DNA from: Thermus caldilimi
GTDB lineage: Bacteria > Deinococcota > Deinococci > Deinococcales > Thermaceae
Direction: 5' to 3'
DNA: 64,000 nt
NCBI RefSeq assembly: GCF_004684245.1
Contig: NZ_CP038452.1
Location: forward strand, 1,040,796-1,104,795
The notes below the pieces were generated by a model. It was not told the DNA's origin. It was given only the letters and a program-made list of their open reading frames with translations, and ran no database searches. The position numbers and the translations under genes were made by a program. Positions 5,850 through 14,360 of this stretch are shown here, piece after piece (positions within the stretch are counted from its first letter, which is position 1; every line of letters starts with the position of its first letter).

Positions 5850-5894
5850 GGGGACAAGCGCCCTTAGAGCACCTTGGCCGGGGAGGAAACGGGG

Positions 5895-5900
5895 TACCCT
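5895..5900 (+). promoter_or_regulatory. -10 box of a leaderless promoter (thioredoxin-fold gene)
   Basis: TACCCT is followed by six bases (AAGGAC) and ATG 5907. Confidence 0.5.
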
Positions 5901-5906
5901 AAGGAC

Positions 5907-6302
5907 ATGATCCGCCTGCGCGCCCCCCTTCCCCCCTACCTCCTCTGGACCCCGGAGGGGGCCAAGGTCTACCTGCCGGACCTCAAGGGGAGAATTCTGA
6001 TCTTGATGCGAAATCCTGCCCTGGCCCAGGCCCTGGCGGAGCGGCAGGAAGAGCTCCGGGAGCTTGCCGCCCAAGCCTACCTCCTGGCCCAGGCCCCCGC
6101 CGCAAGCCCCCTCCCGGTCCTCCTGGACCCGGGGGGCCAGCTCCTTGCGGCCCTCCCCGAGGAGGGGGTTCTGGTGGCCGACGCCTACCTGGAGGTCTAC
6201 CACTTAGGCCCCGTGGCCGATGCGGAGGAGGTGCTGGCCTGGGTGGGCTTCGTGGCCGCCCAGTGCCCGGAGTGCGTGCTGCCGGAGGCGGCATGGACCT
6301 GA
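5907..6302 (+). CDS. Thioredoxin/peroxiredoxin-fold protein with C-terminal CPEC
   Basis: The protein has 131 residues. It follows the peroxiredoxin-like order: a P-D-L-K-G-R strand, a helix rich in E and L, P-L-P-V-L-L-D-P-G-G-Q near residue 72 and E-V-L-A-W-V-G-F near 108. The usual N-terminal peroxidatic cysteine is absent; the only cysteines are in the end motif Q-C-P-E-C. Family membership is inferred from layout. The last 10 bases overlap the DUF488 gene, so the pair is translated together. It shares an Fnr-type site with the ferredoxin operon. Confidence 0.55.
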   Translation: MIRLRAPLPPYLLWTPEGAKVYLPDLKGRILILMRNPALAQALAERQEELRELAAQAYLLAQAPAASPLPVLLDPGGQLLAALPEEGVLVADAYLEVYHLGPVADAEEVLAWVGFVAAQCPECVLPEAAWT

Positions 6303-6652
6303 GGGTCAAGCGGGTCTACGACCCCCCTTCCCCCGAGGACGGGGTGCGGGTGCTCGTGGACCGCCTCTGGCCCCGGGGGCTCAGCAAAGAGGGGGCCAAG
6401 GTGGACTGGTGGGCCAAGGAACTCGCCCCCTCCGACGAGCTCCGCCGCTTCTTCGCCCACGACCCCGAGAAATACCTGGAGTTCCTCCGCCGCTACCGGG
6501 AGGAACTGGAGGGCAACCCCACCTTGGAGCGGTTGCGGGCCCTGGCCCAGCGGGGGAGGGTGACCCTCCTTTTCGGGGCCCGGGAAGCCCGGTACAACAA
6601 CGCCACCGCCCTGGCGGAGATCCTCAGGGAAAATCCGGGGGAAGCCGTGTAA
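6293..6652 (+). CDS. DUF488 family protein
   Basis: The protein has 119 residues and contains the family marks K-R-V-Y-D-P-P-S-P-E-D-G, V-D-R-L-W-P-R-G-L-S-K near residue 25-35 and a C-terminal L-L-F-G-A-R-E-A-R-Y-N-N-A. DUF488 proteins are small, soluble and of unknown biochemical function, often next to redox or stress genes. The ATG at 6293 has a GGAGG a few bases upstream inside the end of the preceding gene, which it overlaps by 10 bases. A strong hairpin follows the stop. Confidence 0.85.
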   Translation: MDLRVKRVYDPPSPEDGVRVLVDRLWPRGLSKEGAKVDWWAKELAPSDELRRFFAHDPEKYLEFLRRYREELEGNPTLERLRALAQRGRVTLLFGAREARYNNATALAEILRENPGEAV

Positions 6653-6657
6653 TACCA

Positions 6658-6685
6658 CCCCACCCCGGCTCGCACCGGGGTGGGG
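6658..6685 (+). terminator. Hairpin terminator after the DUF488 gene
   Basis: A perfect 11-bp stem (CCCCACCCCGG / CCGGGGTGGGG) has a 6-base loop and starts five bases after the stop. There is no T run. The remaining gap to 6818 shows nothing else clear. Confidence 0.6.
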
Positions 6686-6818
6686 GCTCGGTAAAAGGGT
6701 GTCCAAGGCTCTCAGTGGAAGAAGGCAGCGAACGGTTGGTTCAGCGTGGAAGGGTATAAGGCTCCCTAGGCGGGGGTGAACCTTCAGGGGAAAGGCCTAC
6801 CTGGGGTCCCCCGAGGCC

Positions 6819-6847
6819 TTGACGGTTAGGGGTGCCGGGCTTATCAT
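6819..6847 (+). promoter_or_regulatory. Sigma-A promoter of the cytochrome P460 gene
   Basis: TTGACG and TATCAT are separated by exactly 17 bases, the best -35/-10 pair in the window. A normal leader with AAGGAGGTGA then precedes the ATG at 6872. Confidence 0.8.
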
Positions 6848-6871
6848 TTAGGAGTCCTAAGGAGGTGAAGC

Positions 6872-7363
6872 ATGAGGAAGATTTTGGGAATCCTCGGCGC
6901 CTTGGCCTTAGGCCTCCTGGTCCTGGCCCAGTACGGGGGAGGGGCGACGCAACCCACCTTCCCCTACCCCGAGGGCCACCGGCTCTGGACCCACGTGAAG
7001 AGCATGGAGCTCAGGCCCGGCCACCCCCTCTACGAGAGCTTCGGCGGCCTGCACCACATCTACGTGAACCAGGCGGGGCTAAAGACCTACCTGGAGGGCA
7101 AGAGGACCCCCTTCCCTAAGGGCACGGTCATCGTCTTCGACCTCCTCGAGGCCAAGGCGGAAGGGAACGCCCTCCTGGAAGGCCCTAGGAAGCTCATCGG
7201 CGTTATGGTCAAGGATCCGGACCGCTACCGGGACACGGGGGGCTGGGGGTACTACGCCTTTGGCCCGGACAAGAGGCCCCTCAGCATCGACCCCCAATCC
7301 TGCCACGCCTGCCACCAGGGAGCCGCCCACACCGACTATGTATTCAGCGCCTTCCGGCCCTAA
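6872..7363 (+). CDS. Cytochrome P460 family c-type heme protein, exported
   Basis: The protein has 163 residues. Residues 1-20 are a signal peptide ending L-V-L-A-Q. The heme-binding motif C-H-A-C-H is near the C-terminus (about residue 147), preceded by the G-W-G-Y-Y-A-F and D-P-Q-S-C-H features of the P460/P460-like fold. Members oxidize hydroxylamine or detoxify NO in the periplasm; which applies cannot be read here. The start has an AAGGAGGTGA site. It has its own promoter and lies beside nirJ, nirS and nor genes, which favours an NO-linked role. Confidence 0.8.
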   Translation: MRKILGILGALALGLLVLAQYGGGATQPTFPYPEGHRLWTHVKSMELRPGHPLYESFGGLHHIYVNQAGLKTYLEGKRTPFPKGTVIVFDLLEAKAEGNALLEGPRKLIGVMVKDPDRYRDTGGWGYYAFGPDKRPLSIDPQSCHACHQGAAHTDYVFSAFRP

Positions 7364-7372
7364 GATGGGAGG

Positions 7373-7939
7373 GTGGAGGCTTCGCCAAGCGAACAGCAAG
7401 GGGAAAAACTCGTAACCTTGCTAGAGCGCCTAGCCCAGGCGGAGCGGGCCCTCCTCACCCGAAGGGCACACCGCCTGGGCCTCACCGCCCTCCAGGCCCA
7501 GCTTCTCCTCCACCTCTCCGAAAGGCCCTACGGGGTAGTGGCCCTGGCCGAGCTCCTGGCCCTTACCCCAGCCACGGTAAGCGAAGCCCTTACCACCTTG
7601 GAACGCAAAGGTTTTCTCTCCCGGGCTAAGGATCCGGGGGACGGCCGACGGTGGCTCCTCAAACCCACGGAAAAAGGGCTTAGGATGGCCCAGGCCCTGA
7701 AAGGTTACGCAGGGCCCCTCCACCAAGCCCTGGGGAAGGTATCCCATCAAGAGGGGCTCCTTTTAGGGCTCACGGAGTTATTGGCGGAGCTGGTACGGCA
7801 AGGAACGGTACCCGAAACCGGCCTTTGCCTTACCTGCCGCCACCTACGGCGGGAAGAAGGGTTTTTTTGCGCCCTTCTTAGCCTAGCCCTCACACCTTGG
7901 GACCTCCGCCTTGCCTGCCCGGACCACACACCCGCCTGA
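7373..7939 (+). CDS. MarR-type regulator with a C-terminal cysteine cluster
   Basis: The protein has 188 residues from a GTG start. Residues 10-140 form a MarR winged helix: L-T-A-L-Q-A-Q-L-L-L-H-L, T-P-A-T-V-S-E-A-L-T-T-L-E-R-K-G as recognition helix, then the D-P-G-D-G-R-R wing. After a dimerization helix a tail carries C-x2-C-x10-C-x15-C, a possible metal or Fe-S site not standard for MarR. It follows the P460 gene by nine bases and converges with the nirJ-like gene. It may sense NO, redox state or metal and control this island; that is inference. Confidence 0.8.
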   Translation: MEASPSEQQGEKLVTLLERLAQAERALLTRRAHRLGLTALQAQLLLHLSERPYGVVALAELLALTPATVSEALTTLERKGFLSRAKDPGDGRRWLLKPTEKGLRMAQALKGYAGPLHQALGKVSHQEGLLLGLTELLAELVRQGTVPETGLCLTCRHLRREEGFFCALLSLALTPWDLRLACPDHTPA

Positions 7940-7945
7940 CCCCCT

Positions 7946-9069
7946 TTATCCTGCCGCGGGAACCCTGCCCCGTTCCAGCCAGGCCGGGGGTACATAAACG
8001 CACCGGGGCTCGCTTTGCAGGTAGTCCCCGGTTTCCGCCCAGGCCCTGGCCCGGCTCCCCCCGCACACATAGCGGTACTCACAGACCCCGCACTTCCCCT
8101 TCAGGCGGTCCTTATCGCGCAGCGCCTGGAAGAGGGGGCTATGCCGGTAGATTTCCAGAAGGGGCCTTTCCCGCACGTTCCCCGCATAGACCGGCAGGAA
8201 GCCTGAGGGAGCCACGTCCCCGGTGGCGGACACGAAGACAAAGCCGTTTCCGTCCGTAACCCCCAGCCGCGAGTGCTCCATGCCGTCTTGGAAATACTCC
8301 CGGTACATGCTCTCCCCCGCCGCCAGGGCCCGGTCCTGCGCACCCGCTTCCCGCCGCTTTTGCAACACCACCCGGCGAAAGTGGTGGGCCTCGGTGGTTT
8401 TGACGTGGAAGGGATAGGAGAGGGCAACCTGGTAAAGCCAGTGGAGCACCTCCTCAAACTGCCGGGCGGAGAGTTGCCTGAGAAGGGCTCCCCGCCCTAC
8501 TGGAACCAGAAAAAAGAGGCTCCAAAGGACCACCCCCTTCCCGGCTAGCAGATCGGGCAAAGCCTGGATCTCCGGCCAGTTCTCCCGGGTCACGGTGGTG
8601 TTCACCTGGGTAGGAAGCCCCGCCTCCTTGGCCCAGTCCAGGGCCGCCAGGGTCCGGGCAAAGGTGCCTTCCTCTCCCCGAAAGGCGTCGTGGCTCTGGG
8701 GGCTAGCCCCGTCCAGGGAAAGGGCCAGCCGGGTCACCCCGGCCTCCTTGAGCTGGAAGACCTTCTCCCGGGTGAAGAGGGGGTGGCCGCCGGGGTGAGG
8801 CCCACCTTCAGGCCCAGCTCCCGGGCCTTTTGGATGAGGGAAAGGAGGTCGGGACGGGCCAAGGGGTCCCCTCCGGTGAGGAGCAGGAGGGGCTTGGGGC
8901 GGTAGGTGGCCACCTCCTCGATGAGTCGCAAGCCCTCGTCCGTGGAAAGCTCCCCGGGCAGGGGGTGGGGCATGGCGGAAGCCCGGCAGTGACGGCAGGC
9001 GAGGAGACAGGCGTTGGTCACCTCCCAGGCGACCAGATAAGGGTACTGGGCGAACTCGGGACGCTCCAT
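7946..9069 (-). pseudogene. nirJ: NirJ-like radical SAM protein (heme d1 maturation), frameshifted
   Basis: The N-terminal part starts at ATG 9069 and has the radical SAM motif C-L-L-A-C-R-H-C near residue 22 and L-L-T-G-G-D-P-L near 65. That frame ends at 8734. The rest (L-A-L-S-L-D-G-A ... and a C-terminal C-G-V-C-E-Y-R-Y-V-C-G-G cluster) is in another frame down to 7946. One extra base in the five-base run at 8779-8783 would join them into a protein of about 373 residues. NirJ removes propionate side chains during heme d1 synthesis, which NirS next door needs. A related radical SAM activity is possible. The break may be a sequencing error because nirS looks intact. Confidence 0.75.
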
Positions 9070-13934: not shown

Positions 13935-14360
13935 ATGGCCCTGCGTAGCCTCCTCAAGCGGGAAGAGTCCTACGCCCTCCACGCCCTTTTGCTCCTGGCG
14001 GAGGAACCGGGGCTTGGCGCGGCGGAGATCGCCAGGAAGCTCAAAGCTCCCCCCGCCTTCATGGCCAAGGTCCTCTCCAAGCTGGCCAAGGCGGGCCTGG
14101 TGGAAAGCCGCATGGGCCGAACCGGGGGGGTGTGGCTCCGGGTTCCCCCAGAGGAGGTCACCCTCCTCAAGGTGATGGAAAGCCTCTTCGGCCCAGTGGC
14201 CCTGGACCTCTGCGCCACCCTGAGGCGCTGCCCCACGGAGGAAAGGCGGGGGTTCTGCCACCTCAAGCCCAACCTGGTGCGTCTAAACCAGGAAATCCGT
14301 AGGGCCTTTGCCAGCCTCACCCTCAAGGACCTCCTGCCCGAAGCACCCAAGGAGGCTTGA
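13935..14360 (+). CDS. Rrf2-family Fe-S type regulator (NsrR/IscR-like)
   Basis: The protein has 141 residues. The winged helix spans residues 1-75 with Y-A-L-H-A-L-L-L-L-A and I-A-R-K-L-K-A-P-P-A-F-M-A-K-V-L-S-K-L-A-K as helix-turn-helix. Three cysteines follow as C-x5-C-x8-C near residues 95-110, the position of the Fe-S ligands in NsrR, RirA and IscR. NsrR uses such a cluster to sense NO. It is followed by a DUF542 gene and NO-related genes, so an NO-sensing repressor is the best guess. The closest subfamily cannot be fixed by eye. Confidence 0.8.
   Translation: MALRSLLKREESYALHALLLLAEEPGLGAAEIARKLKAPPAFMAKVLSKLAKAGLVESRMGRTGGVWLRVPPEEVTLLKVMESLFGPVALDLCATLRRCPTEERRGFCHLKPNLVRLNQEIRRAFASLTLKDLLPEAPKEA

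Follow-up and report, generated by a model that had tools for sequence, protein, structure and literature searches.

A gene for a MarR-family regulator is found at positions 7373–7939 of the window, the 64,000-nucleotide stretch of the Thermus caldilimi genome analyzed here, between the genes of a cytochrome P460 and of a radical-SAM protein called nirJ, and its product carries four cysteines after the MarR fold. The locus raises the question of what this tail is, which genes the protein controls and to which signal it responds. The features concerned are the following.

6819–6847, + strand: sigma-A type promoter (TTGACG-17-TATCAT) of the P460-MarR unit, from a pattern scan
6848–6860, + strand: predicted operator TTAGGAGTCCTAA, abutting the −10 box, from genome comparison
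6872–7363, + strand: cytochrome P460 family protein, predicted target and first gene of the unit (Pfam PF16694, Cytochrome_P460, 1.4e-28)
7373–7939, + strand: MarR-family regulator with Cys4 tail (translation, Pfam, AlphaFold2 mean pLDDT 91)
7805–7936, + strand: Cys4 tail, residues 145–188 (pLDDT 77–87 by blocks over 141–188)
7826–7828, 7835–7837, 7868–7870 and 7916–7918, + strand: the four Cys codons (translation)
7946–9069, − strand: radical-SAM/SPASM gene called nirJ, TIGR04053-like, with a frameshift near codon 97 (about 8780)
13935–14360, in the window: Rrf2 protein (PF02082)

Translation of 7373–7939 (+) from its GTG start gives a protein of 188 amino acids, in which C152-x2-C155-x10-C166-x15-C182 is situated C-terminal of the MarR fold. 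A sequence-only reading of this DNA had thus described the four-cysteine tail correctly, coordinates included. The Pfam matches above cut-off, among them MarR_2 (PF12802, residues 35–93, 1.4e-10) and a second one, PF01047 (8.8e-10), were confined to the winged helix-turn-helix (wHTH) part. The AlphaFold2 model has predicted helices at residues 5–34, 100–121 and 126–142, and the best 50 Foldseek matches of the full model were all MarR-type structures (111–153 aligned columns, best E 2e-7). The Rrf2 domain (PF02082) was absent from the 20 Pfam families matched by the protein at E ≤ 0.1, and the NCBIfam AdcR model NF038251 gave 28.1 bits, below its cut-off of 175. AdcR and ZitR, which sense zinc, combine the MarR fold with metal control, their metal sites being inside that fold rather than in a Cys4 tail. 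That the tail is a domain known to Pfam or NCBIfam was rejected, as no model above its cut-off covers it: four tail peptides had no Pfam match above cut-off, 43 tails had weak Pfam matches only (best E 0.017) and all NCBIfam matches of three family members were below their cut-offs. With respect to solved relatives of the tail, the best 60 of the 127 PDB relatives of the family profile all stop by profile position 157 of 221, and searches with the tail alone had no hit under E 0.9.

Conservation of the tail was assessed in homologues that were not chosen by their cysteine pattern, but came from the hits in the window's phylum and from profile searches of 40 relatives of Rhodobacter and 39 of Corallococcus. 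Of 111 genomes of the phylum, 27 had matches at E ≤ 1e-12, and in a 12-sequence alignment from the phylum the four cysteines were invariant at a mean column identity of 50%. A family-profile threshold of more than 130 bits left 36 loci, 35 of which have C-x2-C-x(10-35)-C-x15-C; the sequences are related (the tails of L007 and L008 are identical, and L016, L044 and L082 seemingly belong to one genome), so that such counts are not independent. The exception, L016, has a tail that reads as frameshifted internally. The spacing between the third and fourth cysteines is 15 in 35/35, the loop between the second and third has from 10 to 35 residues, and three residues past the last cysteine there is a histidine in 32 of these 35 unselected group A tails (for the groups, see below) and a phenylalanine in 3. 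Variation of the cysteines among orthologues, together with the absence of bound metal, had been named beforehand as what would speak against a metal or Fe-S centre; given the conservation found, the tail is a conserved module with metal- or Fe-S-like spacing. Truncated copies of the regulator, which we call tail-MarR, were also observed at L019 (genome G051), L029 (G053) and L030 (G071).

A DNA pattern of the tail matches at least 118 stretches of the genome collection. The loci found in this way (L052–L169) were excluded as evidence of cysteine conservation, since the four Cys, Met, Thr and C-x-[DE]-H are built into the pattern itself. According to the record titles, the 118 matches listed come from about 18 phylum-level groups: Alphaproteobacteria, Myxococcota and other Deltaproteobacteria, Bacteroidota, Actinomycetota, Cyanobacteria, Acidobacteriota, Planctomycetota, Nitrospirota, Nitrospinota, Chloroflexota, Bacillota, Deinococcota, Gemmatimonadota, Bdellovibrionota, Binatia, Omnitrophota, Poribacteria and one Desulfurococcaceae archaeon MAG. 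An oddity restricted to Thermus was therefore rejected. The earlier remark that MarR proteins with such tails were not a familiar family agrees with the Pfam and NCBIfam searches, in which no model reaching its cut-off extended over the tail; the family is as widespread as just indicated. A frame with the tail was recovered in 79 of the 80 pattern loci checked, and plasmid copies in which the gene is annotated bear only generic MarR or HTH names (among the best 25 of 38 records). In Moorena bouillonii (L112), three pattern matches are located within 6 kb, i.e., tandem tail-MarR copies or repeats. Class and phylum names used for genome sets, and the name Thermus for the window's genus among its relatives, were taken from the named loci that these sets contain.

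A tree was built with the MarR domain only, the tail having been removed, from 74 tail proteins of the window's kind (group A), 11 of a second kind (group B) and 41 ordinary MarR sequences. Group A formed one clade (74/74) with no other protein inside and a support of 0.983, and group B a separate clade that includes one ordinary MarR (support 0.909). The group B proteins (L230–L234, L266–L270 and L117) have a C-x2-C...C-x15-C tail as in group A; their gene is divergent from a sigma-32-like gene, identified by eye, in L230, L232 and L233, and has the 'secr' protein as its neighbour in L231 and L234.

The regulatory region of the unit is compact. The P460 gene is separated from the tail-MarR gene by 9 nt and is preceded by TTGACG (6819–6824), 17 bp, TATCAT (6842–6847), the predicted operator (6848–6860) and a ribosome-binding site, with the P460 start at 6872. 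The promoter pattern occurs once in 6600–8000, 0.2 occurrences being expected. MarR regulators act at a palindrome in front of their own operon or a linked one, and genome comparison points to such an operator here: the palindrome TTAGGAnTCCTAA is conserved upstream of P460 in the window's relatives, and 6848–6860 is both the only match with fewer than three mismatches in the 64-kb window and the only perfect copy in the 2.45 Mb genome. Two binding regions had been proposed for the regulator from the DNA letters; 6819–6871 coincides with the promoter plus the predicted operator, and around 9104 no copy comes closer to the operator than three mismatches. A strict pattern, which missed some loci that do have the operator, recovered the layout of −35 box, 17–18 bp, −10 box and operator at 12 of another 20 loci from the phylum; three of the 12 have one mismatch in the operator, and the first gene is P460 or protoglobin. 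At L045 (G059), a short frame comes after the operator, upstream of P460; it resembles the start and end of protoglobin fused together, by eye a deletion scar. Over the 118 pattern loci listed, the extended operator consensus is wwTAnTTAGGAnTCCTAAnTAww.

These 118 loci (879 kb) contain 39 perfect, 37 one-mismatch and 46 two-mismatch sites. In 10 dinucleotide shuffles there were 0 perfect, 0–3 one-mismatch and 6–15 two-mismatch sites per shuffle, and 20 draws of palindromes with shuffled arms gave, in total, 0 perfect and 11 one-mismatch sites. Counted by locus, a site is present within one mismatch in 62/118 and within two in 96/118. The 56 listed loci without an operator within one mismatch, and the 22 without one within two, count against the main reading proposed below, as does genome G060, in which the regulator is kept without P460 and the operator. 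When loci chosen by neither the cysteine pattern nor the operator were compared, a site with at most one mismatch was found within 1.5 kb in 34 of 37 group A loci (all except L012, L019 and L229), 0 of 10 group B loci and 0 of 42 ordinary MarR genes (Fisher P 3e-19, kinship of the sequences being ignored).

The search was also run in reverse, from operator to locus. In 41 genomes, the window's own plus relatives, the perfect pattern was present in 10, once each, and the reversed pattern in one; all 10 perfect sites are at tail-MarR loci, including that of G006, which the first protein search had missed. The 116 genomes of the class of Corallococcus terminator (2–13.5 Mb each) had 17 perfect sites in 16 genomes, and the reversed-pattern control occurred in 4 of the 116. 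All 16 class loci fetched, one per genome, hold protoglobin, and 15 of them have tail-MarR within 1.5 kb, as does the sixteenth once the stretch was extended; it must be noted that 8 of these 16 genomes were already known to hold tail-MarR. In 22 genomes chosen for holding tail-MarR there were 22 perfect sites in 17 genomes and none in 5, and among the 17 loci fetched from them MarR was present in 14 and only partner genes in one. The 14.8 Mb genome of Sorangium has a single perfect operator, at its tail-MarR locus, which marks the regulator as local rather than global. Two perfect cyanobacterial sites are away from tail-MarR loci, which counts against the main reading. That the protein acts as a local repressor at the predicted operator TTAGGAnTCCTAA is very probable. 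The existence of the family and its shared operator are well supported, the operator TTAGGAnTCCTAA being common to loci of Thermus, cyanobacteria, Bacteroidota, myxobacteria and alphaproteobacteria.

With regard to the partner genes, profiles made from neighbour clusters were run on all stop-to-stop frames, with 136 of 138 loci anchored (all but L044 and L082) and 117 among the 118 pattern loci listed. Protoglobin, P460, Trx, redoxin and Hmp were named by Pfam matches of the cluster representatives (Protoglobin at 6e-28, Thioredoxin_3, AhpC-TSA/Redoxin, and Globin plus FAD/NAD domains), and NnrS, Rrf2-like, CMD/AhpD, truncated globin and sigma-32 by eye. Protoglobin was near 38 of the 118 listed loci (36 within 700 nt), redoxin near 36 (22 within 700 nt), a small CxxC thioredoxin-like protein near 28 (27 within 700 nt), an Hmp-like or single-domain globin near 7 (5 within 700 nt) and P460 near 5, all within 700 nt. 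A gene resembling truncated globin by eye was near one listed locus, and NnrS, also by eye, was in two (L090 and L136). In L105, L150 and L152 a gene that is Rrf2-like by eye adjoins both Hmp and MarR, and CMD/AhpD-like neighbours, again by eye, are present at some tail-MarR loci. Within 1.5 kb, a haem protein was found at 48/118 and a thioredoxin or redoxin thiol protein at 59/118 of the listed loci; none of the tested families was found at this distance in 21/118, which counts against the main reading. In the unselected loci, a neighbour of a tested family was present at 35 of 37 in group A, 2 of 10 in group B and 0 of 42 ordinary MarR genes. Of the protoglobin matches in the phylum, the best six (118–129 bits) all adjoin tail-MarR, and the 18 P460 matches of at least 100 bits in 50 genomes of the family are, without exception, directly upstream of it. 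Altogether, the neighbourhoods in the different phyla, with protoglobin, P460, proteins like thioredoxin or redoxin and, at a few loci, flavohaemoglobin, fit the sensing of NO or redox state that had been suggested for the regulator. The older unit was perhaps operator-protoglobin-P460-MarR, as in L033, L034, L038 and L039, with protoglobin lost elsewhere, the window's species included.

Some other genes were observed around these loci. A secreted-looking protein of about 250 residues (L163, L095, L104 and 26 more), the representative of which had no Pfam or NCBIfam match, is near 29/118 of the listed loci (26 within 700 nt). In the window, 5874–6302 (+) encodes a 142-residue protein, redoxin-like by eye and without Pfam or NCBIfam match, whose gene precedes those of DUF488 and P460; 8 related loci have a similar protein two or three genes ahead of MarR, and a stretch resembling the window's protein by eye replaces the N-terminal part of the truncated tail-MarR copy of G051. 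A frame of 435 residues, partly protoglobin-like (E 1.7e-9), is located at G000:C1:1023921-1024298, about 17 kb before the window, and such a frame is also about 20 kb from tail-MarR in G050, G052, G066 and G068; it is perhaps the O2 sensor DnrS.

On the other side of the regulator, the radical-SAM gene is convergent with tail-MarR and the cd1 nitrite reductase gene is beyond it. The best NCBIfam match of the radical-SAM gene, TIGR04053, is below its cut-off because the frame is split; in the close relative L032 the gene is a single frame. The placement of the regulator between P460 and nirJ is thus as had been claimed, except that nirJ is frameshifted in the window's genome. Of the 27 genomes of the window's genus, 15 have a nearly full-length tail-MarR, which in one of them (G068) has a frameshifted tail, and all 15 have a nirS match, some of these partial; among the other 12, G051 and G053 have tail-MarR remnants and no nirS, and G048 has a partial nirS match. 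In a different genus, probably Meiothermus, four genomes (G030, G031, G032 and G039) have P460-MarR and the operator with no nirS match; denitrification by NirS is therefore not required, which counts against the main reading.

In our main reading, to which we give a probability of about 0.5, the protein is an autoregulated local repressor acting at TTAGGAnTCCTAA, with a metal centre in its tail, likely a HiPIP-like [4Fe-4S] cluster, and is released by NO or a related signal. Bound as a dimer to the palindrome TTAGGAnTCCTAA, which lies over the start of transcription of P460-MarR, the protein would block the unit. The C-terminal Cys4 tail would hold the metal centre, most likely a HiPIP-like [4Fe-4S] cluster, which NO or a closely related nitrosative or oxidative signal would modify; the modified repressor would then dissociate from its operator, allowing synthesis of the thiol partners and of the haem protein, which is P460 in the window and protoglobin or another globin at other loci, and these would remove the signal. 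We infer repression and autoregulation because the predicted operator abuts the −10 box, over the transcription start. The action of NO on the tail centre, with the lifting of repression, is suggested by the partner genes and by the analogue ArnR, which binds DNA in its [4Fe-4S] form but not as the di-nitrosyl species (PMC12343034). A broader proposal, that NO-responsive MarR repressors with a HiPIP-like [4Fe-4S] sensor and one operator TTAGGAnTCCTAA are dedicated domain-wide to the protoglobin branch and to this P460 branch, is put forward only tentatively.

That the tail binds a metal is probable, and we see about an even chance that this metal is in an Fe-S centre. The idea of a HiPIP-like cluster was set down ahead of the structure searches. 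The order of the cysteines in the tail, one CxxC and then two lone residues, is the CX2CXnCXnC motif given for MASS beta, a HiPIP-like [4Fe-4S] subunit (PMC12358834), and the fetched HiPIP genes have the same order. When the AlphaFold2 model of the tail alone, from a homologue (pLDDT 81), was compared with two chains by VIA-align, only 4pkf_B reached Z 2 (Z 2.3, 45 residues, 3.2 Å), a value that may reflect merely a common arrangement. This chain comes from benzylsuccinate synthase, and its residue range fits the beta subunit (PMC12590467). Foldseek with the tail alone gave nothing significant, with one match at E 10. Comparison of tail and HiPIP by hhalign gave P 0.005 but a probability of 7%, with eight control families at P 0.07–0.77; the HiPIP profile was built on 4 sequences, and the HiPIP family search matched 3/142 genomes. 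The Pfam family HIPIP was weakly matched by 2 of 43 tails (best E 0.046), being one of two families that reached 2/43, and its signal is no better than that of DUF6767. Weak matches to the latter were seen in two tails of alignment A3 (best E 0.044), and DUF6767 may be another Cys-rich domain related to the tail.

Combined, the weak structural and profile signals tip the balance only a little from zinc towards Fe-S. Zinc sites with four cysteines are common, and the same repressor could act at the same operator with zinc in its tail; the site would then have a purely structural part, holding the dimer together, or would be a thiol-based redox switch from which oxidation or nitrosation releases the metal. 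Thiol-disulphide chemistry of this kind would suit the thioredoxin-like (28/118) and redoxin (36/118) neighbours of the listed loci, the histidine after the last cysteine (32/35 unselected group A tails) could be a further ligand, and Ada_Zn_binding was weakly matched by one of 43 tails (E 0.051). We nevertheless regard zinc as a reasonable candidate of lesser probability, given the lean of the weak matches to HiPIP-like folds and the single CxxC knuckle with two lone cysteines, as in the MASS beta motif (PMC12358834). That the tail is a degenerate remnant, with neither metal nor sensing role, is extremely unlikely: there are truncated copies (L019, L029 and L030) and the seemingly frameshifted L016, but 35 of 36 unselected members keep the four cysteines and the x15 spacing, though the loop between the second and third cysteines varies from 10 to 35. 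As to the signal of the proposed metal-tailed repressor, NO or an NO-derived species is somewhat favoured. Oxygen, peroxide or peroxynitrite, or the general thiol redox state, would be in line with the redoxin, thioredoxin-like and (by eye) CMD/AhpD-like neighbours, as thiol partners would suit a peroxide, S-nitrosothiol or general redox signal, and with the four genomes that have P460-MarR and no nirS match; in addition, a protoglobin of Methanosarcina has peroxynitrite isomerisation and nitrite reductase activity (PMC4020757). P460, the Hmp-like genes, the Rrf2-like gene beside Hmp (L105, L150 and L152), NnrS (by eye, L090 and L136) and the link with nirS in the window's genus lean instead to NO, and we consider a signal other than NO a reasonable candidate of lesser probability. 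The regulator is physically linked to nirS in most genomes of the genus that have it, which could also mean that the protein regulates the adjacent denitrification genes nirS and nirJ. Such a role is very unlikely, given the four genomes with the unit and no nirS match and the assignment of nirS, nirJ and norC of T. thermophilus to NsrR, DnrS and DnrT (PMC5748679), and nirS/nirJ were rejected as targets because the 64-kb window has no other operator copy with fewer than three mismatches. The Rrf2 protein at 13935–14360 appears to be the Thermus NO regulator NsrR.

A close analogue is ArnR of Corynebacterium glutamicum, which likewise joins a MarR/ArsR-like wHTH to a C-terminal, cysteine-based sensory part and represses the NO-detoxifying hmp gene, its [4Fe-4S] cluster reacting with NO and DNA binding being lost (PMC12343034). 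It differs in its three conserved cysteines (179, 193 and 223), with no CxxC among them; tail-MarR has four, as C-x2-C-x10-C-x15-C. Moreover, ArnR is described there as almost exclusive to Actinobacteria (PMC12343034), whereas tail-MarR is found in about 18 phylum-level groups and has other targets. NsrR also controls NO-handling genes as a wHTH protein and has a Cys-bound centre (PMC5748679), but it belongs to the Rrf2 family (PF02082), and that of Thermus has three conserved cysteines and the operator CTTGACCNNGGTCATGG (PMC5748679). The HiPIP-like small subunits (BSS beta, MASS beta/gamma and HPAD gamma) resemble the tail through the MASS beta motif (PMC12358834), although they are accessories of glycyl radical enzymes and not transcription factors, and the similarity is below significance. 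A MarR-family factor 'norR' is listed in Thermus denitrification clusters, separately from nsr (PMC9270275), and may be the tail-MarR gene. In the available part of that account no tail, operator, target or non-Thermus relatives are described (PMC9270275), and in that of the source cited for 'norR' (PMC7694296) the word MarR is absent from the main text. In the open-licence PMC literature, neither the tail family nor its operator nor a link between MarR and protoglobin was found to be described, and a HiPIP-like sensor in MarR proteins, if real, is not reported in the literature found there.

A local regulator and a 13-bp operator have apparently been kept together across about 18 phylum-level groups, which in our judgement is unusual for MarR proteins. 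The operator is specific enough, with often a single perfect copy in several Mb of genome, to make regulon prediction and reporter assays straightforward. The family gives a direct handle on the function of bacterial protoglobins and of this P460 branch. If the tail holds a HiPIP-like cluster, it would be a new architecture of Fe-S/NO sensor, and if the reading of an NO-responsive HiPIP tail is true, the protoglobin branch and the P460 branch would be assigned to the nitrosative-stress response.
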